This document shows, one piece after another, positions 48,874 to 64,000 of a stretch of DNA of 64,000 bases. The stretch's first letter is position 1, and every line of letters begins with the position of its first letter. The notes below the pieces were generated by a model, which did no database searches, was not told the DNA's origin, and worked only from the letters and a program-made list of their open reading frames with translations. The DNA comes from BD2-11 clade cluster bacterium bin43. GTDB taxonomy: Bacteria; Gemmatimonadota; Gemmatimonadetes; Longimicrobiales; Gaopeijiaceae. The stretch spans positions 62,001 through 126,000 of the forward strand of contig MPMR01000013.1 in the NCBI GenBank assembly GCA_002238605.1, written 5' to 3'. The position numbers were made by a program, and so were the translations under genes.

Positions 48874-49353
48874 ATGCTGAACGAAATCAGACAGAAGTTG
48901 GAAGACGAGATCGAAACGCTCTCGCGCGAGCTGGCCTTCGAGCTTCCCGAGCGCATCCGAAAGGCCGTCGAGCTGGGCGATCTGCGCGAGAACTCGGAGT
49001 ACAAGTCGGCGCTGGAGCGGCAGCAGTTCGTGAACGCCCGCATCGGCCACCTGCGGCAGCGCGTCTCCGCGCTGTCGCAGATCGACGTCGAGGGGATGCC
49101 CCCGGACAGGGTGGGGTTCGGCTCCCGGGTTACGGTCCATGATCGTGTACGGGGAATGCAGGTAACGTACACGATCGCAGCCGGTGACTACATCGACATC
49201 GAGGCGGGCCATGTCTCCATGGCGTCCGCCATCGGCCGGGGTCTGATGGGCGCGCGCCAGGGCGAGGAGGTCGAGGTAAGGCTGCCGAGCGGCATACGCC
49301 GGTACGAGATCGTCGAGCTGGAGACGTTGCCTCAGCGGATGGGGATGTCATGA
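48874..49353 (+). CDS. greA: Transcription elongation factor GreA/GreB family
   Basis: 159 residues, the usual length. N-terminal coiled coil with the tip motif AVELGDLRENSEYKSALERQ (acidic residues that reach the RNA polymerase active site), and a C-terminal FKBP-like domain (FGSRVTVHDRVRG ... ASAIGRGLMGARQGEEVEVRLPSG). It reactivates backtracked RNA polymerase. Its stop overlaps the next gene's ATG (ATGA). Confidence 0.95.
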   Translation: MLNEIRQKLEDEIETLSRELAFELPERIRKAVELGDLRENSEYKSALERQQFVNARIGHLRQRVSALSQIDVEGMPPDRVGFGSRVTVHDRVRGMQVTYTIAAGDYIDIEAGHVSMASAIGRGLMGARQGEEVEVRLPSGIRRYEIVELETLPQRMGMS

Positions 49354-51230
49354 CCGGGCCGGCGAAGGCCGTTCGCCGCCGCGGCGCCACGGCCCGGCGG
49401 ACGGTCGTGGTAACCAGTGGACCGGATGACCGAACAGGCGCGCCCGGTTGCGTCCATCCCGCAAGCCGGGTCCTCGCCGCCGGACTTCTCGTGTTCGCGA
49501 TCGGCGGGTGCGCCGAGGCTCCCCGCGCCGAAGCGGGTCTCCCGCCCCTGCACTACGTCGCTTCCGCCGAACAGGTCGGGCCGGTGGCGTACCGGGATCC
49601 GCTCGGCGTGGTGTCGCCCGATGGCCGCTGGCTGGCCTACACCGAGCGAGACCGACTGCACCTGGTCCCGGTGGCCGGCGGCGCCACGCGCGTCCTGGGA
49701 TCGGGGGCGTCGTCGATGCGCTTCATCGCGTGGCTGCCCGACAGCCGCCGTGTCGCCGTGCGGGAGCGCGTATTCGACCGCAGCCGGCAGGAGTGGTGGC
49801 TCTACGACCGCACGGACGGCGCCCGCGAGCCGCTGTGGCCGGGCCGGAACGCGTCACCCGACCTGCTCGCGCTGGACATGCTCGCCTGGTCGCCGGACGG
49901 CACCACCGTGGCGGGTGTCTCGTCGGGGGGCGGTGAGTCCATCGTGTGGCTGCTGGACGCCGAGGGGGCCAACCCGCGGCCGGCCGCCACGGGAACGCGC
50001 CTCTCGTTCCCCGCATGGTCGCCGGACGGGCAGCTCGCCTGCCTCTCATTCGAGGACAGCCATCAGCGGCTGCACCTCCCCTGCGACGCGCCCGGCCCGC
50101 TCTTCACGGATCAGGAGGTGTACGGGCCGCTCGCCTTCTCGCCCGCCGGGGACCAGGTCTACTACGCGGCGCCGGGAGAGGGCGGGTTTCTGGACCTCTG
50201 GGCGCGCCCGGCCGCGGGCGGGGCGCCCACCCGCCTGACCGGATTCGCGCGCGACGCCTACGCCCCCACCGCGGGCGCCGATGGGCGCATCCTCTTCAAG
50301 TCGCAGGACTACCGCGTCTTCGTGGCGACCGCGCCGGCCGCGGGCGGGCCATCCACCCCGCTCACCACCTTCCAGTCCGAGACGCCCACCTGGAGCTGGG
50401 ACGGATCCGAGGTCGCGTTCACCTTCGGCAGTTGGCGCCATGTCACCGACGACTTCCACTACCCCGACATCGCGCAGCACATCGGCATCGTTGGAGCTGG
50501 TGCGCGTGAGCCGCACGACGCCCCGGAACGCGTGGTCCGCCAGTCCTACTCGGAGGACCAGGGAATGCACACCTCGCCCAACGGGCGCTGGATCGCCTTC
50601 CATACCCACGAGGAATCGGACGACATCTGGCTCATGGCCGCCGACGGGAGCGGCGAGGCGCGCATGATCAGCGAGGACGGCCACGAGACGGGGTGGGCGC
50701 GCTGGTCGGCGGACGGGCGCTGGATCCTCTTCCCCAGCTATCGCATGGACGACGCCGGGGCGCGGCGGGCGCACCTGTTCGTCATCGGCATCGACCAGGA
50801 GACGGGGCAGGTGACGGAGCCGCAGGCGCGCATCGAGCTCGTGGGCTTCGAGCAGGACGTGATCCAGGGAGAGTGGGCCGACGCGGGCGAGACGGTCATC
50901 TTCGAGGCGGCGGAGGCGGTCGGACGCAAGAGCCTCTGGCGCGTTCCTCGCACGGGCGGGACGCCGGAGCGCCTGCACAACTACGGCTCGGACCAGATCC
51001 ATTCGGGAATCGGCGTCTCGGCCGACGGGCGCTGGGTGGCCTACGTCGACCGCGCCGGTGACGGGTTCTTCCAGATCTTCCGGGTGCCGGCGGGCGGAGG
51101 GGCAGCGGAGCAGTTGACCTTCGACCCCTCCCACAAGACCCAGCCCGCCTATTCGCCGGCCGGGGATCGCATCGCCTTTACCGTTTTCGACTACCGGGTT
51201 CATTTCTGGCGAATCGAAGCCGGGTTCTGA
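49350..51230 (+). CDS. Exported TolB/PD40-type beta-propeller lipoprotein
   Basis: 626 residues from ATG 49350 (start overlapping the greA stop); the export signal with a lipobox (FAIGGC) only appears around residues 40-55, so the real start may lie downstream, for example GTG 49407. The mature protein is built from WD40-like PD40 repeats: VSPDGRWLAYTER, WSPDGTTVAGVS, WSPDGQLACLS, FSPAGDQVYYA, TSPNGRWIAFH, WSADGRWILFP, VSADGRWVAYVD, YSPAGDRIAFT. No peptidase domain is attached. Likely a periplasmic or surface binding propeller; partner unknown. Confidence 0.85.
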   Translation: MTGPAKAVRRRGATARRTVVVTSGPDDRTGAPGCVHPASRVLAAGLLVFAIGGCAEAPRAEAGLPPLHYVASAEQVGPVAYRDPLGVVSPDGRWLAYTERDRLHLVPVAGGATRVLGSGASSMRFIAWLPDSRRVAVRERVFDRSRQEWWLYDRTDGAREPLWPGRNASPDLLALDMLAWSPDGTTVAGVSSGGGESIVWLLDAEGANPRPAATGTRLSFPAWSPDGQLACLSFEDSHQRLHLPCDAPGPLFTDQEVYGPLAFSPAGDQVYYAAPGEGGFLDLWARPAAGGAPTRLTGFARDAYAPTAGADGRILFKSQDYRVFVATAPAAGGPSTPLTTFQSETPTWSWDGSEVAFTFGSWRHVTDDFHYPDIAQHIGIVGAGAREPHDAPERVVRQSYSEDQGMHTSPNGRWIAFHTHEESDDIWLMAADGSGEARMISEDGHETGWARWSADGRWILFPSYRMDDAGARRAHLFVIGIDQETGQVTEPQARIELVGFEQDVIQGEWADAGETVIFEAAEAVGRKSLWRVPRTGGTPERLHNYGSDQIHSGIGVSADGRWVAYVDRAGDGFFQIFRVPAGGGAAEQLTFDPSHKTQPAYSPAGDRIAFTVFDYRVHFWRIEAGF

Positions 51231-51264: not shown

Positions 51265-51293
51265 TTGACATGGCCGCGGCTGAGTTAAAGAAT
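51265..51293 (+). promoter_or_regulatory. Probable sigma-70-type promoter for the acyl carrier protein gene
   Basis: A consensus -35 TTGACA (51265-51270) is separated by 17 bases from AAGAAT (51288-51293), four of six matches to TATAAT. It lies about 50 bases before the carrier-protein ATG at 51345 and just after the propeller gene, so the carrier and hydrolase genes appear to have their own promoter. Confidence 0.5.
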
Positions 51294-51344: not shown

Positions 51345-51569
51345 ATGTCTACCACCGAAGCACGCCTCCGCGCACTTATCGACGAGCACCTGGATCTGGA
51401 CCACGAACCGGACTTTGACTTGGCGTTCGGCGAAGCCGGTGTGTCCTCTCTTGACTGCGTCGCCTTCGTGAAGCTGGTGGCCAGGGAATTCGAGGTCGAG
51501 ATTCCCCCCGAGGAGTGGATGGGCGTCGGATCTCTCCGCGGCCTGGCCGCTCGTATCGACGCCGGCTGA
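51345..51569 (+). CDS. Discrete acyl carrier protein
   Basis: 74 residues from ATG 51345 (GAGGA about 11 bases upstream; an earlier ATG would add 31 unrelated residues). One helical carrier domain: acidic N-terminal helix, attachment motif GVSSLDCVAF with the phosphopantetheine Ser at residue 35, and EFEVEIPPEEWMGVGSLRGLAARI as helix three. Asp of the usual DSL is Ser here. It is not near fatty-acid synthase genes; it lies between a propeller gene and an alpha/beta hydrolase, and faces a polyketide synthase whose last module lacks an ACP. Confidence 0.87.
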   Translation: MSTTEARLRALIDEHLDLDHEPDFDLAFGEAGVSSLDCVAFVKLVAREFEVEIPPEEWMGVGSLRGLAARIDAG

Positions 51570-51659
51570 TCGAGGCGCGTCCCGTCTCATCACGCACCCG
51601 CCCGGCCGGACGGGTGCTGATTTCGACATAGCGCATCGGGGGTGTAGCGGCCGCCACGC

Positions 51660-52580
51660 ATGAACAGGGCAGGCAGATGGGAGATCCCCGAGCCGCGCTC
51701 CGTGCACGAGGTCCGTCAGGACGACGGCAGCGTAACGATTCTGCGCAGGCATGGGAATCCGGCCGGCCCGCGGCTTCTGCTGGGCCACGGCAACGGGCTG
51801 GCGATGGACTTCTACTACCCGTTCTGGTCGTTGCTGACGGGTGACTTCGATGTGCTGCTCTACGATCTGCGGAACCATGGCTGGAATGCCGTCGGGGAAC
51901 GCCCCGAGCACAACATGCCCAACCTGGTCCGGGACCAGGAGCGCGTTATCGAAGCAGCCGCGCACCGGTACGGCGAACGACCCACGACCGGGGTTTTTCA
52001 TTCGCTTGCGGCGCTGACGACGCTCCTCTCATCGACCTTGGGAACAGGTGGGTGCGACAGGTTGGCCGCGTGGGTCCTGTTCGATCCGCCGCTCTACAGA
52101 CCTGGACCGAAGGACCCGGATTTCGACGCGCTGGCCGAGGCCGCCGCGGGGATGGCGAGCCGCCGCGCGGACCGATTCCACAAGCGGGAGGATTTCACGG
52201 AACTCCTCAGCTTTCTGCCACTGCTTACCAGGGCGGTTCCCGGTGCGGCGGATCTGATGGCTCGTACGGTTCTGCGGGAATCCTCGGGGGAAGGCGGCTA
52301 CGAGCTTCGCTGTCCTCGCGAATACGAAGCGCAGATCATCGCCTACGTGAGGACCTACGCGTTCCTCGTCGATTTCGGGAATCTGCCGTGTCCTACGAAG
52401 GTGATCGGCTCCGATCCGACGTTGCCCTACGCGTACCTGCCCACGTTCGACCTCACCCACATCGGGGCCGTCAACTACGACTTCGTCCCCGAGACGACGC
52501 ACTTCCTTCAGGTGGAACAGCCGGCGGAGTGCGTCGCGATGATGCGAGTGTTCCTGGAGGAGTGCGGGCTGCTCCAGTAG
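51660..52580 (+). CDS. Alpha/beta-fold hydrolase
   Basis: 306 residues. Oxyanion region LLLGHGNGLAMD (residues 39-50), YDLRNHG, a nucleophile elbow GVFHSLAAL with Ser115 (relaxed from GxSxG), and a likely catalytic His281 in ETTHFLQVEQP. It follows the carrier-protein gene by 90 bases on the same strand. Such hydrolases act as thioesterases or esterases; the location suggests a role in product release from the carrier or synthase (inference). It ends 16 bases from the convergent DUF1761 gene. Confidence 0.83.
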   Translation: MNRAGRWEIPEPRSVHEVRQDDGSVTILRRHGNPAGPRLLLGHGNGLAMDFYYPFWSLLTGDFDVLLYDLRNHGWNAVGERPEHNMPNLVRDQERVIEAAAHRYGERPTTGVFHSLAALTTLLSSTLGTGGCDRLAAWVLFDPPLYRPGPKDPDFDALAEAAAGMASRRADRFHKREDFTELLSFLPLLTRAVPGAADLMARTVLRESSGEGGYELRCPREYEAQIIAYVRTYAFLVDFGNLPCPTKVIGSDPTLPYAYLPTFDLTHIGAVNYDFVPETTHFLQVEQPAECVAMMRVFLEECGLLQ

Positions 52581-52596: not shown

Positions 52597-53010
52597 CTAA
52601 GCAGGCCACAAGGCGATGACAACCGCCTGTCCGATGAGCGACACTCCGTTGTAGCCGACGTTCAGCCATGCGAGCCCGGGCTTGCGCCCCTCGAACGTGA
52701 CCCCCTGGTGCGCGACCGGGAGGACGAAGGCAACCAGCGCCATGAGTCCCACGTGTACGCCGACCATCGGCGAGGCGGTCCCGGGAGCGATATCGGCGAT
52801 CAGCTGGGCCAGAATGAACGCGGTGACCAGCGAGAGCAGGAAGCTGATGCCGTAGGTCTTGAGCGGGTTGAAGCCCTCCTGGATTTCCTCGGGCGTCGTC
52901 TCCATCAGCGCCATCCAGCGCTTGCCGAACAGCGGTCCGTACCAGAGCATGCCGACGATCATCGGGACGATCCCGGCGACCAGCACTGCGAGCAGGTTGA
53001 CATCGTGCAT
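52597..53010 (-). CDS. DUF1761 family small membrane protein
   Basis: 137 residues, four hydrophobic helices; GGGAGAA precedes the ATG. The family pattern is clear at the start (AGIVPMIVGMLWYGPLFGKRWM) with the WYxPLFGxxW signature. Function is unknown in all relatives. It lies 86 bases downstream of the permease gene and probably ends the synthase operon, though the gap allows independent transcription. Confidence 0.85.
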   Translation of the reverse strand: MHDVNLLAVLVAGIVPMIVGMLWYGPLFGKRWMALMETTPEEIQEGFNPLKTYGISFLLSLVTAFILAQLIADIAPGTASPMVGVHVGLMALVAFVLPVAHQGVTFEGRKPGLAWLNVGYNGVSLIGQAVVIALWPA

Positions 53011-53096: not shown

Positions 53097-54857
53097 TCAG
53101 CCGGAGCCGCGGACTTCCTCCACGCGCACCGTTACGATCTCGGTGTCGTGGTACTGCTGGTGGCGGACCGAAGAGGCAAGGTGGCGGAGCAGGCGCAGCG
53201 ACACCTCCCGCTCCATGGAGGCTTCGTCGGAGTGGTCTTCGAGCAGGGCGATCCGGTCCTGCAGGTTCTCGGTTCCGGGACCGACAACGAATTCGAGCAC
53301 GGCCCCGCGCTTCTCGATGTGCGCTGTCAACAGGAGCCGGCGGCCGCTGTCCTCGTCCGGTCCGGAATCGGTCCCTCGCGCGAGCGCGAGCAGCGCCTCC
53401 TCGGCGGCGGCCCCAAGCCGCTCGGCCATCTCCTCGCCCCAACCGCCGCGGGACGCGAAATCGTCCAGGAACTTCTGGATCGTCGGTAGTTGCGCGCTGT
53501 CGAGTCCCGCTTCGATGCGGCTCGGGCGGGGCTCCGTGAGGCGGAGGAAGAGGGTCATGAGGATGGCGCTGAAACCGCCGGCATTCATGCCGTTCTCGAG
53601 CAGGCCGCCCGCGAATCGAGACGCCTCCCCGGGGAAGATCAGGCCGTACTGGAAGCCCACCCCGGCGAGGAAGGCGATGCCGACGACCATGCCCTCGCGG
53701 TACCCCAGGCCGCCCTGCAGCACGATCTTCATGCCGATCGCGAAGAGCATGGCGAGCAGAACGACGAGATAGCCGGCGAAGACCGGGTCGGGAATCGCCA
53801 GTACGGCCGCGAACGGCTTCGGCAGGAAGGCGAACGCGATGAACGTTGCTCCCGCCACGATCCCGACTGCGCGCGCCGCCACGCCGGTGAGCTGGGTCAG
53901 GGGCACGCTCGTGGTGGTTGCGCTGCCGGGGACGGTCCCGGCGAGGCCGGCGAGGAGGTTGCCCACTCCGTCCACCGTCATGGCACCCTGTACGGCGCGG
54001 AAGTCGACCGCGCGGCTCCTTCGGCGCCACGAGACGCGCTGGACCGCCACCGCGCTGCTCATCGTCCGGATTGCTGCGATCACGGCAACGAGCAGGAAGG
54101 AGGGGAGCAGCGTCCAGAATGCCGTGCCGAACTCGAGATCCAGACCAGGGGCCTGGATCCGCGGCAGGTCCAGCCAGGGAGCAGCCGCGACGCGCTCGAG
54201 GTCGTAGAGGCCGTATCCGGCCGCGATCGCCGAGCCCAGGATTACCCCGATCACGGGGGCCCATAGCCGCAGTGTTCCGCTCGCCTTGAGCGCAAGGCCG
54301 CCGATGAGGAGCACCGTTGCGAAGAAGCTGACCGGCGCGCCCGGGACGGTGCCCGTGTCGGGGGAGCCGGAGAGGAGGCCGCCGATGAAGGGCATGACCG
54401 TGACCGGGATGAGCATGATCACGGTGCCCGAGACGGCGGGCGTCAGGACGCGCTGGAAGAGGGAAAGCCGCCAGGAGAGCAGGAGCGGGACCATCGCGGA
54501 GACCACGACCAGCACTGCGAGCAGGGCGGGGCCCCCCTCCACGAGCGCCATGATCGAGGCGGGGATGAAAGCCCCGGAGGTGCCCATGACCATCACATGT
54601 CCCATCCCGATGCGTCCGGCGCGCAGCGCCTGCAAGACGGTCGCCACGCCGCAGATGGTCACCGACGCCACCACGGCCCAGGACAGGTAGGCGTCGCTCA
54701 TGCCGGCGGCCCGCATCACCACCATGGGAATGAGCATCACGGCGGCGATGTTGAGCACCGCCAGCTGCAGGCCGACCCCCAGCGCGAGGCGCGGCGGGGC
54801 TTTCTCGTCGGCCTGGTAACGAAGTGAGGGATCGCTGCGGGGACTGCGGGCGCTCAT
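53097..54857 (-). CDS. NCS2-type (xanthine/uracil) permease with C-terminal RsbW-like domain
   Basis: 586 residues from ATG 54857; ATGA overlaps the stop of the polyketide synthase. Residues about 25-450 form a permease with 12-14 helices of the nucleobase:cation symporter 2 type (GMGHVMVMGTSGAFIPA, GLAGTVPGSATTTSV; a FANL-like segment is not clear). The last 120 residues are soluble and resemble the serine-kinase/anti-sigma ATPase fold (GEEMAERLGAAAEEALLAL; VSLRLLRHLASSVRHQQYHD), but the Asn of the N-box and the DxGxG nucleotide motif are missing, so ATP binding is doubtful. Its coupling to the synthase suggests transport of its substrate, product or precursor; nucleobase uptake is the family default. 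Confidence 0.82.
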   Translation of the reverse strand: MSARSPRSDPSLRYQADEKAPPRLALGVGLQLAVLNIAAVMLIPMVVMRAAGMSDAYLSWAVVASVTICGVATVLQALRAGRIGMGHVMVMGTSGAFIPASIMALVEGGPALLAVLVVVSAMVPLLLSWRLSLFQRVLTPAVSGTVIMLIPVTVMPFIGGLLSGSPDTGTVPGAPVSFFATVLLIGGLALKASGTLRLWAPVIGVILGSAIAAGYGLYDLERVAAAPWLDLPRIQAPGLDLEFGTAFWTLLPSFLLVAVIAAIRTMSSAVAVQRVSWRRRSRAVDFRAVQGAMTVDGVGNLLAGLAGTVPGSATTTSVPLTQLTGVAARAVGIVAGATFIAFAFLPKPFAAVLAIPDPVFAGYLVVLLAMLFAIGMKIVLQGGLGYREGMVVGIAFLAGVGFQYGLIFPGEASRFAGGLLENGMNAGGFSAILMTLFLRLTEPRPSRIEAGLDSAQLPTIQKFLDDFASRGGWGEEMAERLGAAAEEALLALARGTDSGPDEDSGRRLLLTAHIEKRGAVLEFVVGPGTENLQDRIALLEDHSDEASMEREVSLRLLRHLASSVRHQQYHDTEIVTVRVEEVRGSG

Positions 54858-57800
54858 CGGGCCGGGTCGAACCAGTGTCTTCTGCGCTGGAACGGATAGC
54901 CGGGAAGGGAGATCCGGCGGCGCGCCTCCCCCGCGAACAGTCCGGCGAACGAAATCGGCAACCCTGCCTCGTAGGCTCGCGCCACTGACTCCGCGAAGGA
55001 GGTGCTGTCGGCTCGGCTGGCCGCTTCGGGCCACATCCCCAGCCGGGCGGGTCCCGCTCCTGGCCGCGGGCCGACCTCCACGACGAGTTCCGCTTCCGCC
55101 CCCGCGAGCGCCCGGGTCAGTCCGGCCGTTTTGTGCGCCGCGTTCGCCTGTCGGCGCCAGTACGTGCCGTCGAGCCCTGCGTCAGCCGCCAGGACGGCGC
55201 CCGTGAGCTCGCTCACCATCGCGATTTCCGGAGGGGTGAACGTCATGCCGGAGCACACGGCTTCCAGTTCGGCCAGTGGATCCGGATCCGGACCGGAGCG
55301 ATCACCGGCCGGAGCGGCCGCCGCCATCCGTACTCTCGGCCGACTCATCGCGGCTCCGCGGGCGGCTGCGATGCGCAGCCCGTCTTCCAGGGTGAACACG
55401 CCCGCGGCCCAGGCGGCGGCTACCTCGGCGACGCCGTGTCCCGCGACCACCCCGGGCCGCACGCCCACGCTTGCCCAGAGCGCCGTGAGCGCGCACGCGA
55501 GCGAGTAGACGGCCGGCTGCGCCCACTCCGGGTCGCCCAGCCTGCCCGCCGCACCCGCCCGTCCGAACATGAGGTCGATCAGGGAGGCTCCCCCACGTTC
55601 GGCTCCGAACACGGCGTCACACCGATCCAGCACCGCACGGACCACGGGCTCGGTTTCGTAGAGATCCCGCCCCATTCCTATCCGCTCACTGCCCTCGCCG
55701 GTGTACACGAAGGCGGTCCTGGGGGGCGGGGGAGGCTCCGGCATCCCTCTGGGCTCCGGCCCCAGGTCCGCCCGCAGCAGGGCGTTGAGCCCCTCCAGCA
55801 GCGACGCGGCATCGCCGAAGACCAGACCTGCGCGGCGAGCGAAGTGACTGCGCCCCACGCCAGCCGTCCAGGCCATGTCGGCGAGCAAGGTCTCCGCCGC
55901 GCCGCCTCCCGCGGACAACTCCTCCTCATGCTCGTCCAACCAGGTCCGGTACCGCTGCGCGAGTTCCCGCAATGCGGCTGGAGATTTCCCGGAGAGCGGC
56001 AGCACGCGCATCGCGCGGGGAACGAACTCGCCCCCGGCAACCGGCAGTTCGACCGCGTTTCCGGGCAGCTCGACCGGCGCGGTTCGGGCAGGACCGGCTG
56101 CCCGGGGCGCGCCCGCCAGCGCTGAAGCATCCCCCTCCACGGCGCCCGCTTCGACCACCACGTGTGCGTTCGTCCCGGAGAGCCCGAAGGAACTCACCCC
56201 GGCGCGCGCCGGACGCCCGGGACGGGAAGGCCAGTCCATGGACTCGGAAGTGACCCGGACCGGAAGCTGGTCCCACGCCAGATGCGGGTTCGGGTCGTGG
56301 AAGTGAAGCTGCTTCGGGATGCTGCCCTCGTTCATGGCAAGGACTGCCTTGATCAGGCTGGCCACTCCGGCCGCGCACTCCGAGTGGCCGATGTTGGTTT
56401 TCACGGACCCGATCAGCAGCGGGCGCTCCGGGCTCCGTTCCCGGCCGTAGACGGCTGCCGCCGCCTGCACCTCGATCGGATCGCCCAGATCGGATCCTGC
56501 TCCGTGTGCCTCCAGATAGTCCACCTCTGCCGGCGCGATCCCGGCGCGGGCAAGGGCTTCTTCGATGACGCGCTCCTGGGCCGGTCCGTTGGGTACGGTC
56601 AGCCCCGCGCTGGGCCCGTTCTGGTTGACCGCGGATCCCCGGATCACGCCCCAGATGCGGTCACCCTCCGCCCGCGCCTCGCTCAGTCGCTTCAGCACGA
56701 CGACGCCGCACCCCTCCCCGCGCACGAAGCCGTCCGCCGCCGCGTCGAAGGTGCTGCAGCGTCCCGTTGCCGACAGCATGCCGACCTCTTTCATGAAGGT
56801 CGATATGTCCGGGGACAGGATTGCGTTGACGCCGCTGACCAGGGCCATCTCCACTTCGCCGTGCCGGAGGGCGGAAGCGGCCTGGTGGACGGCTGCCAGG
56901 GAGGACGCGCACGCCATGTCCAGCGGGATCGCCGGGCCTGTGAGCCCCAGCGCGAAGGAGATCCGCCCGGCGGTGACGCTCATGGTCGTGCCGAGGTAGC
57001 CGTGGGCCTCGCCACTCATCGCCGCCACATCCCGGTAGTCGCCGTTTCCGACCCCGACATAGACACCGATGTTGCTGCCCTTCAGTCGCTCGGGATCCAC
57101 CCCCGCGTCCTCGAGCGCATGCCAGGTTGTTTCGAGCAGCAGGCGCTGCCGCGGATCCATCATGCGCGCCTCGATCGGCGCAATCCGGAAGAACCTGGCG
57201 TCGAACTTGTCGATGTCCTCGAGGAACGCGCCCCGACGGGAAGCGTCGTCGGGTCCGGCCGGATCTCCGGCGACGCCGTCCCAGGGACCGGGATCCCGGC
57301 GTCCGTCCGTCACCAGATCGGCCCCGCCCTGGAGGAGGCTCCAGAAGGAGGCGAGGTCAGGGGCTCCGGGGAATCGGCACGCCATCCCGACGATCGCGAT
57401 GGCGTCGTCTTCGTCCGACGCGTCCGGCGCGCTCGCCGGTTCCGGCTGAGGTCCGGGGGCGGGCACCGGCTGACGCTCGGCGGCCGCCGCCGCCCCGTCC
57501 TCGCCCAGTTCGCCGTTCAGGTGAGCGGCGAGCGAGGCGATGTCCGGGTAGTCGAACACGAGCGTGTTGGGTGCCGTGTACGCTCCCGAAAGGGCGCGGT
57601 TGAGCCGGTTGCGCAGCTCGACGGCCATCAACGAGTCCATCCCCAAGTCGAAGAACCCCACCGCCGGCGCCGGAGCCGACGGCAGCCGCAGCACGGCCTG
57701 CACCTCGCCCTGCAGGAAGGACACCAGCACGTTCTCGCGCTCCGCCGCGGGGGATTCCCGTACGCGGGACAGAACATCCCTCGGGGCAGACGCGGTCTCC

Positions 57801-60800
57801 GGCTCGGCCTCGGAGGCCCCGGAGAACAGCTCCTCGAGAAGGGGCGGACGCTCGTCGACGGCTTCTTCGAACGCGCCCCAGTCCATCGCCATCACGACGG
57901 AATGGGTCACGTCCTGGCGCACGAGCCGGTCGAACGCCCTGATGCCCTGTTGCGGCGTGAACCAGCGGCCGCCGAGGGCCGAGCGCCGCTGGTCGATACG
58001 CTCCCGTTGCTCGGCCGCCTCGCCGATTTCCGACCACGCGCCCCATGCGATGGCCTGTCCGGCGAGCCCCAGCGCGCGGCGGTGGCCGGCAAGCTGGTCG
58101 AGGAAGGCGTTGGCGGCGGCGTGGTTCGCCTGGCCGGGATTCCCCATCACGCCCACCCGGCTGGAAAAAAGGACGAACATGTCCAGATCGCGGTCGAGCG
58201 TCGCGCGATGCAGATGCCAGGCACCCAGGATCTTGGGCCACAGAACCTGTTCGAACCTCTCCCAGGTCTGATTGGGGAGGGCGCCGTCGGACAGGACTCC
58301 CACGCTGTGGATCACGCCCCCGAGCGGCGGCAGCCTCAGGTCCATGCGCGCAAGCATCTCGTCGACCGCGTTCCCGTCCGCGATGTCGGCCAGCTCCACC
58401 TCGACCGTCACCCCGCGTTCCCGGAGCGAACGGACGGTCTCCTCGGCGTCGGGATCCGGCGGGCGCCGGCCGTTCAGCACGATGGCGCCCGCGCCCCGGT
58501 CGGCCAGCCATTCGGCCACCGCACAACCGATGCCGCCCAGGCCGCCGGTGACCAGGTAGGTCCGGTCCGGCCGCAGCCGGCCACCCGTGAGCGGGGGCGT
58601 GGTCACGACGATCTTTCCGAGATGCCGCGCCGATCTCATGAAGCTCAGCGCCGCGCCGGCCTCCGCCAGGGGCCAGCGGCTGTGGATGATGGGGCTGAGC
58701 TCTCCCGAGTCGATGCGTGCCATCACGCCGCGCAGGACCCTTCCCACCCGCGCCGGATCCGTCTTCTTCAGAACGTCCAGTTCCAGGATGTGATAGGGCA
58801 CGTCGGGACGTACCGCCGCCATCTCCTCTTCGCTGAGGATGTCCCGTCGGGCCATCTCCACGAAACGGCCGCCGCGCTTGAGGCACGAGAGGCTGGCGTC
58901 GATGAAGCCCTCTCCCGTCAGGCTGTTCAGAACGACATCCACGCCCTCGCCTTCCGTGGCCTCGAGAATCTCGCGCCCGAAGTCGATGGTGCGGCTGTCG
59001 AAGACGTGCTTCACGCCGAGGGACCGCAGATACGCCTGTTTGGGTGCGCTCGCGGTGGCGAAGACCTCGGCGCCCGCTGCCTGCACCCACTGGATGGCCG
59101 CGAGGCCCACGCCGCCCGCGCCCGCGTGGATCAGCACCCGTTCGCCGGGCTCCAGTCCCGTGAATTCGAACGAGAGGGCCGCCGACACGAAGGCGCTGGG
59201 GACCGCCGCCAGTCCGGTTACCGGGAACCGCTCGGGCGCGGGAGCCACCAGTTCCGCGTGCGTGATCATCTCCGGGCCGAATGCCCCGAACCCCATTCCG
59301 ACCACATGATCGCCGACCCCTGCCTCGGACACGCCGCAGCCCACCTGAATGACATGGCCGCACATCTCCCTGCCCAGCAGCCCCTCCTCGATGAAGCCCA
59401 GCGAGCGGAACACGTCCCAGAAGTTGAGTCCCGCCGCCTCGACCGCGACGCGCACCTCTCCCGGCTCCAGGGGCCGCGCCGGCAGCGGCAGCACGAAAGG
59501 CCTGTCGAACACCCCGGCCGGATCAGGAGCCAGCACCCAGTCGGGGTCGTCCGGGAGCGCCAGCCGCTCCGCGTCCGACTCCGCGCGAATCAGACGGGCC
59601 ACCCGGCGACGTCCGAAGCGGTGGACGATGTGGTTTTCCGAGTCCGGATACATGAACTCGTTCGCGAGGTCCGGGTCGGCCGCCCTCTCCCCGGGGTCCA
59701 GATCGATCATCCTCGGCTGCAGATGGGCGGCCTCCCGGGCCACCCCCTTGCCCAGGCCCCACAGGACCGCACCGGCGAGCTGGCCGCCGGTCTCGCGCTC
59801 CAGCACCTGCGCGCCTCGCGTGACGAACCACACGCCCCGATCCGGGTTCCGGCCGGAGTCGGTGACCCCCTGCACCATGGCAAGCGCGGCTGTCCCCCCG
59901 CGCGCGACGTCGGCGGCGACTTCCGCGGTCGTCGCATCCTGTCCGTGCCCGTCCAGGGCCATGAGGTGCGCAACGCCCCGTAAAGGAACGTCCGCGGGGA
60001 GGCTCTCGATCAGCGACCGCCACGACTCGCGCCGATCCATCTCCAGCGTCGTGACGAAGACCCCGGGGCCGGTCGCATCCGGCCGCTCGTCTTCCGGTTC
60101 GCCACCGGCCGCCAGCACGACCGTCTGGTTGCGTGCCGCCAGATCGTTCGCCAGCCGCTCGGCGATGCCGCCCTGGTCGGCGGCCAGAATCCAGGCGCCC
60201 GGCGGCTCCTGCACCCGCGCGGGGCCGCTCGCCACGATCACGCCCTTGTCCGGCATGCCCGCGAGGTCGGACTCGTCCACACCCAGGACTTCCACCGCCT
60301 CGAAGCCCGCGTCGCCGAGCGCGCGCCGCCACACCGCCGGACCCGCCAGCGCGTGGTGTGGCCGGTAGTCGTCGGCGAACCGCCACCAGCCGTCGAGCTG
60401 CCCGAACGTCAGGTCCATCCAGCCCAGGCCGCTCAGGTTCTCGAGCGCGATCAGCTGTCCCGAGGGCGCAAGCAGCTTGCGACAATGGGTCAGCGTCTCT
60501 TCCAGATAGCGTGTCGCGTGCAGGACGTTGGACGCGAGCAGCAGATCGTATCCGTGGGCCGCGAACCCCTGCTCGAGGGGATCCTTCTCGATGTCCAGAG
60601 GACGGTATTCGATGGAGCCGTCCCCATCCCCGAAACGCGCCTCGGCCTCCGCGAAGAAGCCCGCGGAGATGTCGGTGTACATGTAGTCGAAGCGCCCTTC
60701 CGGAAGCACCGGCAGGACGGACGCGGTGGCCGATCCGGTGCCGGCGCCGACCTCGATGATCCTGAGACGCCGTCCCTCGGGCAGCGCATCCACCAGCGCC

Positions 60801-63800
60801 CTGACCGCCTCCTCCAGCATCTGGTTTGCCGCGCGCGCCACGGGCGCCTTCAGGTATAGGTCGGCCGCGGTGGGTTCCCCGCTGCTGAACAGGAGCGTCA
60901 GCGGATCCTCCCGGCCGCGCAGCACCTCCGCCAGAGCGCCGCCCGACCGCCGGAACAGCCCGGTCTCGGTCAGACCATGCGCATAGCGGCCGGCCATCAC
61001 GTCGGCGTACTGGTCCGGATCGCGCGGCAGCACCCCCGGCCACGGATCCTCGGATCCGGCGACGACCACGAAGCCGTCGTCGCTCTCCTTCAGCACCCCG
61101 GACTTCGCCGCCATCTCGAGCATGCGCCGGAAGAGACGCTGGTGGTCCGGGATGACGCCGAGGCGTTCACGCAGGTCTTCGGGTTGGACGATTGAGCCCG
61201 GCTCGCGTTGCCAGCCCAGCCTGTCCAGCGTCGCCAGCGCATAGGCCCACGACCAGTGCTCCAGGTCCGTCAGGAGGGCGTTCCTGCCGTCGGGATCGAC
61301 GCCGGCATCGACGAGATAGTCCGCGAACATCCGCGCGCCCGCCTTGACGGACGCCGGGGCGGGGAAGAAATCCGCGGACGGCAGGCCGGGAGGGAGGGCG
61401 CGCTCCCTCCAGACCACCTCGTAGAGCAGATCCTTCACACCCTCCACGGCCGAGAGCAGCGCCGCCCGGGTCGCGCGTTTCACGGTGTAGCCGCTCAACC
61501 CGCCGAGCAGCGCGCCTTGCGGGTCGTAGATGCGCAGCTCGCCGGAAAGGACCTCGGGCGCCTCGCCGTCGCTCTCCGCCGCGATGCGGGATGCCTCGTT
61601 CATGAGCACGTGACAGACCACGCGGTCGGGCAGCCGTCCGGCCGTAAGCCACAGCCGTTCCCAGCCGAAGGGGAGGTAGGTCACGGATCCGTGCGGCCCC
61701 TCCAGGTCGCGCGCCGCGCCCACGACCTGAAAGCACCCGTCCAGGACCAGCGGATGAACCTCCAGCTGGTTGCGGCCGAGACCTTCCGGGAACGACACTT
61801 CGCCCAACGCCTCCCCGGCTCCGGACCAGGCGCGCTGCAACGTGCGGAAGGACGGACCGAGATCGACCCCGGTGCCCGCGCGGGCGCGGTAATATGCCGA
61901 CACGTCCACCGGCGACAACCGGGCCCTGAGAGCATCCAGATCGATGTTCCCCTCGGCTTCCGGCACGCGGGAGCCCGGTGACGTGCGGCCTTCGACATGC
62001 ACAGTCCATTCCCCGTCGCTCCCCTTGCTGAAGATCTGGAAGGGATGCGCCGCGGGCGCCTCCGGGGCGTCCAGCACGAACTGCATCTCACGGCCGTCCA
62101 CGCCCGCGCCGTTCGCGGAGCCCTCCTCCGTCAAGACCAGCGCGTTGTGCAGCTGAACCTCCTCCACGACCACCGGTGCGCTCCCTTCGAGCAGGGACGC
62201 CGACACCGCCATGGCCCCGTACAGCGCCCCGGGCGCCACCACCCGGCCGTACACCCGGTGGTCGTCCAGCCACTCGGGATCCGAGGCGAACACTTCCGTC
62301 TCGAACGTCACCTCGCCCCGCGCCGACTCGTGGCGGGCACCCAGCAGGGGATGCCCGGCGTCCGCCCGCCGTCGCCTGGGCGCCTCGAGCCAGTGGCGCC
62401 TCCGCTGGAAGGGGTAGCCGGGGATCGAGATCCGCCGCCGGGCTTCCCCTGCAAAGAGGCCCTCGAACCGGATCGGGAGCCCGGCCTGGTAGGCGCCTGC
62501 GGCGGCTTCCGCAAAGCCGCCGGTCGACCCGCCGGCCCCGGCGTCACCGGATGGTGGCGCGATGCTCGACAGCGCCGCCGGCGCCTCTGCCGACGCCGGC
62601 CAGGCCGAGAGCGCCATCGGGGCCAGCACCGAGCGCGGACCGATCTCGATCACCAGGTCCACGCCCAGATCCGCCAGGGTTCTGACGCCGCTGGCAAACG
62701 CCACCGCCTGCCGCGCGTGCCGTTTCCAGTAGCTGCCGTCGAGTAGCTCGCCCGCCTCGACGGCGCGGCCCGTCAGATTGCTGACCATGGTCAGCGTGGG
62801 CGGCGCGATGGCCGAAGCATCGAGCGAAGCCTCAAGCACGTCGAGCACCGGCTCCACCAGGGCGCTGTGGAATGCTTTCGCGGTGTTGAGTCTGCGCACC
62901 CGGACCGCCTCCGCCTCGAAGCGGTTCGAGATGGCTTCGACGTCCTCCGCGGGGCCGCTGATCACCTGGTGGGTGCCGTTGTCCCCCGAGATGCTGACGC
63001 CAACGCCGACCGACGCCGCGCTATGCGCTTCGACCGCCTCTGCGACGCGCGCGGCCGGCGCGAACACCGCGGCCATGGCGCCGTCTTCCATGCTCGCCAT
63101 CAGCGCGCCGCGCGCGCAGGCGAACCGCATTCCGTCCTCCAGGCTGAACACGCCCGCCGCCTGCGAGGCCGCCAACTCCCCGACGCTGTGCCCCAGCACC
63201 ACATCGGGCCGGATGCCCATGCTCGCCCAGAGCGCAGTCAGCGCGCATTCGAGCGTGTAGAGAGCCGGCTGTTCCCATGCGGTGTCGCGCAGCTGATCCT
63301 CATCTCCGGACCGGCCGAACATCGCGTCCAGCAGGGAAGTGCCTCTCTCGTCGCGGAAGACCGCCTCGCAGCGGTCCATCACCGCGCGCACCACGGGCTC
63401 CGTCTCGTACAGCTCCCTGCCCATCCCGACCCACTGGCTCCCCTGCCCTGTGTAGGCGAACGCGACCCTGGTGGCAGTGCCCGGCCCTGGTACGTCCCCC
63501 GACTCGGCGAGCGCCTCCAGCTGACGGCGCAGCGGCCCGACGTCCTCGAAGACGATCCCCGCGCGCTGATCGAAGTGACTCCGCCCCACGCCCGCCGTCC
63601 ACGCCAGGTCGGCGAGCAGCTCCGCCGCGGCGGCTCCCCCGGATAGTTCGCCGGCGCGGTCTTCGAGCCACGCCAGATACCGCCCTGCCGATTCCCGCAG
63701 CGCCTGTTCGGACTTGGCGGACAAAGGCAGCACGCGGGTTCGACGCGCGCGGATGTCAGGCTCGGGCGGCGGCAGATGCGCTACCGCGGCGGGAAGCGCA

Positions 63801-64000
63801 ACCGGGATGGGTTGCGGGGATCCCAGCGGCAGAGGGCTCGCTTCACGGGTCGCCTCGGGGCCCCAATACTCTTCCACTACAAGGTGGGCGTTCGTCCCGG
63901 ATATGCCGAAGCAGTTCACCCCGGCCACGCGCGGGCGGCCGGGACGATCCGGCCAGTCCATCATGTCCGAAGTCACCCGCAACGGCGCCCGATCCCAGTC
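54854..64000 (-). CDS. Type I polyketide synthase, 3' part (cut by window end)
   Basis: 3048 codons are visible and the frame is open to the edge. Order (with nt): end of a KS (64000-63880); AT1 (about 63470-62600) with GHSVGE, catalytic Ser at 63187, and KAFHS, suggesting malonyl-CoA; DH (about 62355-61480) with DHRVYGRVVAP, His at 62260, and LDGCFQ, Asp at 61741; C-methyltransferase (about 60900-60290) with EVGAGTGSAT at 60754; spacer like a structural KR half (60210-59600); ER (59500-58620) with HAGAGGVG at 59128; KR (58590-57900) with TGGLGGIG and NHAAAN; ACP (57740-57510) with GMDSL, Ser at 57634; KS2 (57420-56150) with DMACASS (Cys at 56911), EAHGAGSD, NIGHSE; AT2 (55730-54990), degenerate. 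No thioesterase. One methylating, fully reducing module plus an unfinished one. Confidence 0.93.
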   Translation of the reverse strand, partial: DWDRAPLRVTSDMMDWPDRPGRPRVAGVNCFGISGTNAHLVVEEYWGPEATREASPLPLGSPQPIPVALPAAVAHLPPPEPDIRARRTRVLPLSAKSEQALRESAGRYLAWLEDRAGELSGGAAAAELLADLAWTAGVGRSHFDQRAGIVFEDVGPLRRQLEALAESGDVPGPGTATRVAFAYTGQGSQWVGMGRELYETEPVVRAVMDRCEAVFRDERGTSLLDAMFGRSGDEDQLRDTAWEQPALYTLECALTALWASMGIRPDVVLGHSVGELAASQAAGVFSLEDGMRFACARGALMASMEDGAMAAVFAPAARVAEAVEAHSAASVGVGVSISGDNGTHQVISGPAEDVEAISNRFEAEAVRVRRLNTAKAFHSALVEPVLDVLEASLDASAIAPPTLTMVSNLTGRAVEAGELLDGSYWKRHARQAVAFASGVRTLADLGVDLVIEIGPRSVLAPMALSAWPASAEAPAALSSIAPPSGDAGAGGSTGGFAEAAAGAYQAGLPIRFEGLFAGEARRRISIPGYPFQRRRHWLEAPRRRRADAGHPLLGARHESARGEVTFETEVFASDPEWLDDHRVYGRVVAPGALYGAMAVSASLLEGSAPVVVEEVQLHNALVLTEEGSANGAGVDGREMQFVLDAPEAPAAHPFQIFSKGSDGEWTVHVEGRTSPGSRVPEAEGNIDLDALRARLSPVDVSAYYRARAGTGVDLGPSFRTLQRAWSGAGEALGEVSFPEGLGRNQLEVHPLVLDGCFQVVGAARDLEGPHGSVTYLPFGWERLWLTAGRLPDRVVCHVLMNEASRIAAESDGEAPEVLSGELRIYDPQGALLGGLSGYTVKRATRAALLSAVEGVKDLLYEVVWRERALPPGLPSADFFPAPASVKAGARMFADYLVDAGVDPDGRNALLTDLEHWSWAYALATLDRLGWQREPGSIVQPEDLRERLGVIPDHQRLFRRMLEMAAKSGVLKESDDGFVVVAGSEDPWPGVLPRDPDQYADVMAGRYAHGLTETGLFRRSGGALAEVLRGREDPLTLLFSSGEPTAADLYLKAPVARAANQMLEEAVRALVDALPEGRRLRIIEVGAGTGSATASVLPVLPEGRFDYMYTDISAGFFAEAEARFGDGDGSIEYRPLDIEKDPLEQGFAAHGYDLLLASNVLHATRYLEETLTHCRKLLAPSGQLIALENLSGLGWMDLTFGQLDGWWRFADDYRPHHALAGPAVWRRALGDAGFEAVEVLGVDESDLAGMPDKGVIVASGPARVQEPPGAWILAADQGGIAERLANDLAARNQTVVLAAGGEPEDERPDATGPGVFVTTLEMDRRESWRSLIESLPADVPLRGVAHLMALDGHGQDATTAEVAADVARGGTAALAMVQGVTDSGRNPDRGVWFVTRGAQVLERETGGQLAGAVLWGLGKGVAREAAHLQPRMIDLDPGERAADPDLANEFMYPDSENHIVHRFGRRRVARLIRAESDAERLALPDDPDWVLAPDPAGVFDRPFVLPLPARPLEPGEVRVAVEAAGLNFWDVFRSLGFIEEGLLGREMCGHVIQVGCGVSEAGVGDHVVGMGFGAFGPEMITHAELVAPAPERFPVTGLAAVPSAFVSAALSFEFTGLEPGERVLIHAGAGGVGLAAIQWVQAAGAEVFATASAPKQAYLRSLGVKHVFDSRTIDFGREILEATEGEGVDVVLNSLTGEGFIDASLSCLKRGGRFVEMARRDILSEEEMAAVRPDVPYHILELDVLKKTDPARVGRVLRGVMARIDSGELSPIIHSRWPLAEAGAALSFMRSARHLGKIVVTTPPLTGGRLRPDRTYLVTGGLGGIGCAVAEWLADRGAGAIVLNGRRPPDPDAEETVRSLRERGVTVEVELADIADGNAVDEMLARMDLRLPPLGGVIHSVGVLSDGALPNQTWERFEQVLWPKILGAWHLHRATLDRDLDMFVLFSSRVGVMGNPGQANHAAANAFLDQLAGHRRALGLAGQAIAWGAWSEIGEAAEQRERIDQRRSALGGRWFTPQQGIRAFDRLVRQDVTHSVVMAMDWGAFEEAVDERPPLLEELFSGASEAEPETASAPRDVLSRVRESPAAERENVLVSFLQGEVQAVLRLPSAPAPAVGFFDLGMDSLMAVELRNRLNRALSGAYTAPNTLVFDYPDIASLAAHLNGELGEDGAAAAAERQPVPAPGPQPEPASAPDASDEDDAIAIVGMACRFPGAPDLASFWSLLQGGADLVTDGRRDPGPWDGVAGDPAGPDDASRRGAFLEDIDKFDARFFRIAPIEARMMDPRQRLLLETTWHALEDAGVDPERLKGSNIGVYVGVGNGDYRDVAAMSGEAHGYLGTTMSVTAGRISFALGLTGPAIPLDMACASSLAAVHQAASALRHGEVEMALVSGVNAILSPDISTFMKEVGMLSATGRCSTFDAAADGFVRGEGCGVVVLKRLSEARAEGDRIWGVIRGSAVNQNGPSAGLTVPNGPAQERVIEEALARAGIAPAEVDYLEAHGAGSDLGDPIEVQAAAAVYGRERSPERPLLIGSVKTNIGHSECAAGVASLIKAVLAMNEGSIPKQLHFHDPNPHLAWDQLPVRVTSESMDWPSRPGRPARAGVSSFGLSGTNAHVVVEAGAVEGDASALAGAPRAAGPARTAPVELPGNAVELPVAGGEFVPRAMRVLPLSGKSPAALRELAQRYRTWLDEHEEELSAGGGAAETLLADMAWTAGVGRSHFARRAGLVFGDAASLLEGLNALLRADLGPEPRGMPEPPPPPRTAFVYTGEGSERIGMGRDLYETEPVVRAVLDRCDAVFGAERGGASLIDLMFGRAGAAGRLGDPEWAQPAVYSLACALTALWASVGVRPGVVAGHGVAEVAAAWAAGVFTLEDGLRIAAARGAAMSRPRVRMAAAAPAGDRSGPDPDPLAELEAVCSGMTFTPPEIAMVSELTGAVLAADAGLDGTYWRRQANAAHKTAGLTRALAGAEAELVVEVGPRPGAGPARLGMWPEAASRADSTSFAESVARAYEAGLPISFAGLFAGEARRRISLPGYPFQRRRHWFDPAR

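Follow-up and report, generated by a model that had tools for sequence, protein, structure and literature searches.

Polyketide synthases (PKSs) of the sponge symbiont ubiquitous (SUP) type, described as small and monomodular and as dominant in sponge metagenomes, occur in many phyla (PMC9426513), and a permease, SupE, has been named for their clusters (PMC3908369). Neither the product nor the release step of such PKSs was found to be established in the literature searched. Three further systems are relevant to the present study. The KS3 of HtmA1, a non-elongating KS0 (Cys-Asn-His) within a split bimodule, is a transacylase 'springboard' that moves the chain from one acyl carrier protein (ACP) to another, an activity seen in vitro as well as in vivo (PMC8456789); in chlorophyte PKSs a terminal KS0 preceding a hydrolase-like domain has a proposed role in release (PMC4661987); and the thioesterase domain of curacin CurM (PDB 3qit) deploys an alpha/beta hydrolase fold in polyketide release.

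The window analysed here, a stretch of 64,000 nucleotides that is part of contig C19 of a 4.47-Mb genome, contains a type I PKS that is probably of the SUP type, an assignment based on its domain set, hosts and permease neighbour, the comparison being one of description rather than of sequence. The likeness consists of a reducing domain set of the methyl-branched-fatty-acid type including an MT domain, occurrence in MAGs of sponge symbionts, and an accompanying permease that may correspond to SupE; the SUP enzymes are described, however, as small and monomodular. In the SUP literature searched, the founding 2007 paper excepted (it may already describe ACP or hydrolase genes), we found no account of a dead terminal AT combined with a trans-acting ACP and hydrolase, and literature searches on supB-supE returned nothing relevant. 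With HtmA1 KS3 the locus shares a transfer Cys, an AT that is not needed and passage of the chain to a next ACP, some relatives of the window PKS being themselves Cys-Asn-His; here, however, KS2 stands at the end of a cis-AT synthase, the carrier is encoded as a protein of its own, and the first His is retained in most members. The chlorophyte system similarly combines a terminal KS with a hydrolase proposed for release, but is fused and eukaryotic, whereas the present one consists of separate genes and includes a carrier as well as a dead AT.

Organisation of the locus

The window includes the C-terminal 3048 aa of the PKS (54854-64000, minus strand; ...AT-DH-MT-ER-KR-ACP-KS-AT), the complete protein of ~3446 aa being organised as KS1-AT1-DH-MT-ER-KR-ACP1-KS2-AT2. 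AT1 (62618-63460, minus strand) is intact by motif (GHSVGE, AFHS), the MT domain carries its SAM motif, and the internal ACP1 (57518-57715, minus strand) has GMDSL. The AFHS motif of an AT is usually taken as malonyl-type, and consequently the MT domain would be the source of the methyl branches. Since AT1 is intact in cis and only AT2 is dead, the enzyme falls outside the trans-AT PKSs. A domain search found no other release domain within the synthase. In all 47 copies seen the KR motif read GNPGQ[AS]N-H-AAAN, PKS residue 1960 (58121-58123, minus strand) occupying the KR catalytic position at which Tyr is usual.

The stop of the PKS lies at 54854, after KS-AT, and a free ACP gene (51345-51569, plus strand) and an alpha/beta hydrolase gene (51660-52580, plus strand) are convergent to it, coordinates and strands that agree with the original prediction. 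Two genes absent from that prediction separate the PKS from the hydrolase: an NCS2-type permease with a C-terminal HATPase-like domain (53097-54857, minus strand), the start of which overlaps the PKS stop as ATGA (54854-54857), and a DUF1761 membrane protein (52603-53010, minus strand) restricted, among the loci compared, to the window's genus. The NCS2/xanthine-type permease was present in most PKS loci compared, its position varying; the HATPase_c_2-like stretch at its C-terminus (a weak match) is unusual for a transporter. A comparison of 11 flanks upstream of the PKS revealed no other gene shared throughout the family.

The terminal KS2 and AT2 domains

By motif and selection KS2 (56153-57406, minus strand) appears to be live, with Cys2364 at 56909-56911 and His2499 at 56504-56506. 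Alignment of relatives indicated that the Cys was kept in 53 of 53 scorable sequences, and the Lys and the second His in 54 of 54. The first (decarboxylation) His was kept in 42 of 54, the window included, and was replaced by Asn in nine and Gln in three; when the tree was built with this motif left out, the replacements mapped as five changes, of which at least four were independent losses. KS1 retained HGTGT wherever it was read. Apparent losses of the first His from G486, G528 and G559, suggested by pattern matching, were rejected as artefacts, the residue being kept in the alignment. Values of dN/dS within the genus (KS2, 0.09; KS1, 0.07) indicated strong purifying selection. Considered as a potential non-elongating KS0, the window domain has the expected transfer Cys but has not lost the first catalytic His.

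In AT2 (54926-55708, limits approximate, minus strand), GHGVAE replaces GHSxGE at residue 2856, the Ser to Gly change lying at 55433-55435, and the AFHS segment is deleted. Among 54 terminal regions the nucleophile position was occupied by Gly in 40, Asp in three and Ser in one, and was gapped in ten; the catalytic Ser was therefore present in only one of 44 aligned sequences. The His segment AFHS was gapped in 54 of 54, and in actinobacterial lineages most of the AT2 core was deleted. Judged by these residues, the terminal AT is predicted to be catalytically dead across the whole family, which is a new finding of this study. The claim that the ACP and hydrolase together supply exactly what the last module lacks accordingly needs amendment: a carrier and a release enzyme are indeed provided, but a working AT is also missing. 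Decay of AT2 into a pseudodomain was discounted within the window's genus, in which its dN/dS (~0.25) is similar to that of AT1, and because of this near equality the domain is considered to be retained as a structural part. An in-frame TAG or a frameshift was recorded within the dead AT2 at L042, L043 (G003, G010) and L165 (G005), the premature TAG being carried by G003 and G010.

The free carrier protein and the hydrolase

Domain matches, identity across the genus (~90% or more for the hydrolase, and likewise for the free ACP where present) and dN/dS values within the genus of 0.10-0.11 (ACP) and 0.10-0.14 (hydrolase) confirmed that both genes are coding. The 74 aa ACP matched PF00550 at 34 bits, above the cut-off of 20.8, and is thereby a member of the carrier proteins; its phosphopantetheine Ser35 (codon 51447-51449) was kept in 45 of 45 aligned relatives. 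The fatty-acid ACP of the same genome is a different gene, located on contig C3, with a stronger match. A promoter-like site of sigma-70 type, TTGACA-17-AAGAAT (51265-51293, plus strand), lies 5' of the free ACP, and its -35 box was unchanged in all six relatives compared; the carrier match and this site together bear out the prediction of a free carrier with its own promoter. Also 5' of the ACP is a TolB-like beta-propeller protein (49350-51230, plus strand), whose match to lasso-peptide isopeptidases falls below threshold. A single PPTase match was obtained in the window's genome (L112, G000:C28), and this one enzyme may serve both the fatty-acid carriers and the PKS carriers.

The hydrolase (306 aa) matched PF12697 at 51 bits and possesses a Ser115/Asp252/His281 triad (codons at 52002, 52413 and 52500), each residue of which was unchanged in 45 of 45 relatives; fold and triad place it among the alpha/beta hydrolases. 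In all 45, however, the nucleophile elbow is G-x-[FY]-H-S-L-[AS]-[AS] instead of GxSxG, and the protein is accordingly not a canonical GxSxG serine hydrolase. The intact Ser/His pair and relaxed elbow noted at the outset were thus both upheld, but the elbow provides no specific link to the editing thioesterases to which it had been likened. The thioesterase family PF00975 was absent from the Pfam matches at E up to 0.1, the generic Abhydrolase_6 being the only assignment. When an AlphaFold2 model (pLDDT 78, pTM 0.82) was submitted to Foldseek, the first match was the CurM thioesterase domain, although many alpha/beta hydrolases scored alike and the nearest folds were mostly 12-20% identical; a sequence search of the PDB gave one weak match (5a62). 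The CurM domain differs in being ~15% identical to the hydrolase and in being fused to its module. Assigning a function from the fold was rejected, the Foldseek and VIA lists being full of generic alpha/beta hydrolases; a thioesterase role is permitted, though not demonstrated, by the modelled fold. Hydrolase paralogues 46-53% identical were located at L053 (G000:C42) and L055 (G007:C30), adjoining a class-III aminotransferase or an AMP-binding ligase, with no ACP or PKS nearby.

Co-occurrence and gene order

A survey of 395 genomes of the window's phylum, in which PKSs were counted at 700 bits or more, detected the hydrolase in 42, the PKS in 43 and both in 42 (Fisher 5e-56, uncorrected for relatedness), the sole PKS without a hydrolase being that of G429, a 670-contig assembly. 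Among 198 genomes of the order to which the MAG G128, labelled Acidimicrobiia, belongs, the PKS and orthologues of the hydrolase (E up to 1e-138) were confined to the same ten, and weaker paralogues (E 1e-80 to 1e-97) occurred without the PKS in three, shared descent being uncorrected for in the counts from both phyla. Similarly, the 17 of 118 relatives with a close hydrolase (E < 1e-100) were the same 17 that had a strong terminal KS-AT match. G034 (g25) and G037 (g28), sampled from genera that otherwise have the unit, lack it, which indicates that the PKS, ACP and hydrolase genes come and go together. The association of the three is beyond chance. In the co-occurrence check suggested initially, no hydrolase orthologue was encountered without the PKS in the 395 plus 198 genomes, and the PKS was encountered without a hydrolase once; the pattern named at the outset as refuting the idea did not appear. 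The relatives are mostly MAGs with sponge-type bin names, which we take to reflect a sponge origin, their records being labelled Gemmatimonadetes/Gemmatimonadota or Gammaproteobacteria, both within one genus, so that Gemmatimonadota is regarded as the likely phylum. The peptide patterns used found no relative in viral contigs.

Linkage was assessed in the 47 genomes in which the end of the PKS could be read. In 43 of them an ACP gene lay no more than 4 kb from the PKS stop (36 convergent, seven tandem), in several gene orders, and in 37 the hydrolase did so. In one arrangement the PKS converges on a hydrolase-ACP pair, with or without the permease between; a tandem PKS-ACP-hydrolase order occurs in G246, G277 and G349, and in some Actinobacteria (L094, G579) PKS-ACP-PPTase-hydrolase lie on a single strand. 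A lone ACP is situated 60-150 bp from the PKS stop, the hydrolase being elsewhere, in G002, G005, G009, G173, G229, G256 and G274, and G115 and G109 each contain two such synthases, every one facing its own ACP-hydrolase pair. The exceptions are G061, with only the hydrolase near the PKS end, G171 and G062, with the pair elsewhere in the genome, and G429, in which neither gene was found. Adjacency of the hydrolase to the PKS is not required.

Proposed function of the unit

The coupling of ACP, hydrolase and PKS is well supported, and on balance it appears rather probable that the ACP, the hydrolase and KS2 constitute an off-loading module that is split and acts in trans. A reduced acyl chain with C-methyl branches would be built, probably in iterative rounds, by module 1 (KS1-AT1-DH-MT-ER-KR-ACP1); KS2 would take the finished chain from ACP1 onto Cys2364 and, most likely adding no extender unit, hand it to the stand-alone ACP; and the hydrolase would then cleave the thioester on the free ACP, the acid being released or handed on. 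We infer this transfer, the absence of extension and the thioester hydrolysis from the residue patterns. KS2 is read as a chain-transfer domain because its Cys is kept, the AT never works, and the decarboxylation His has repeatedly been lost beside the same ACP, and the last module probably serves to transfer and off-load the chain without elongating it, rather than being an ordinary extension module that lacks its carrier. HtmA1 KS3 provides a precedent for such transfer, and the role proposed for the chlorophyte terminal KS0 domains one for release. The trans-acting termination module originally envisaged is thereby supported by co-inheritance and residue pattern, but refined to one that would off-load without elongating. 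Whether it extends to the whole family, as an off-loading gate in which a cis-AT synthase, its last module having lost AT activity to become a KS-only transfer station, delivers finished methyl-branched chains to a free ACP that has its own PPTase and hydrolase, the unit having spread among sponge symbionts of two phyla, is a question on which we regard the case as evenly poised. If the off-loading reading is correct, a synthase expressed alone in a heterologous host would fail, the free ACP, hydrolase and PPTase also being needed, and the system would be a natural case of a dead-AT terminal KS serving as a chain-transfer gate.

Several observations nevertheless count against off-loading. The Cys-His-His set retained by the window KS2 means that condensation is still possible, and a dead AT2 is compatible with extension, given that the free ACP could be charged by AT1 or FabD. 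It is conceivable, though unlikely, that KS2 performs one extra elongation with malonate so loaded, the hydrolase releasing a beta-keto acid, from which a methyl ketone may arise by decarboxylation. Consistent with this, the complete catalytic set (Cys, Lys and both His) is present in 42 of 54 sequences, including that of the window, KS2 is under strong purifying selection, and the top-scoring CurM thioesterase is a decarboxylating one. However, the first His has gone in at least four lineages that still have the ACP, most with the hydrolase adjoining, AT2 has been lost in every sequence, and no reductive domain follows KS2. The AT2 dN/dS within the genus, being about that of AT1, also sits uneasily with off-loading.

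Further points against off-loading are the generic Abhydrolase_6 match of the hydrolase, its location away from the PKS in about one fifth of genomes, and, for G062, G171 and G429, a PKS end with neither gene nearby. A distant hydrolase, and paralogues adjoining an aminotransferase or AMP-binding ligase, would suit a type II, or editing, enzyme acting to remove stalled chains, with the free ACP as a supply or holding carrier, KS2 delivering to an unseen acyltransferase and release being non-hydrolytic; we consider this improbable, however, in that no further enzyme gene is conserved in the 11 upstream flanks and the synthase has no other release domain. That the three genes are merely co-inherited neighbours of unrelated function draws on the few independent acquisitions and on co-occurrence largely inside a few genera, but is very improbable: order and strand have been reshuffled with the genes still together, in two phyla, and co-presence persists where the genes are unlinked.
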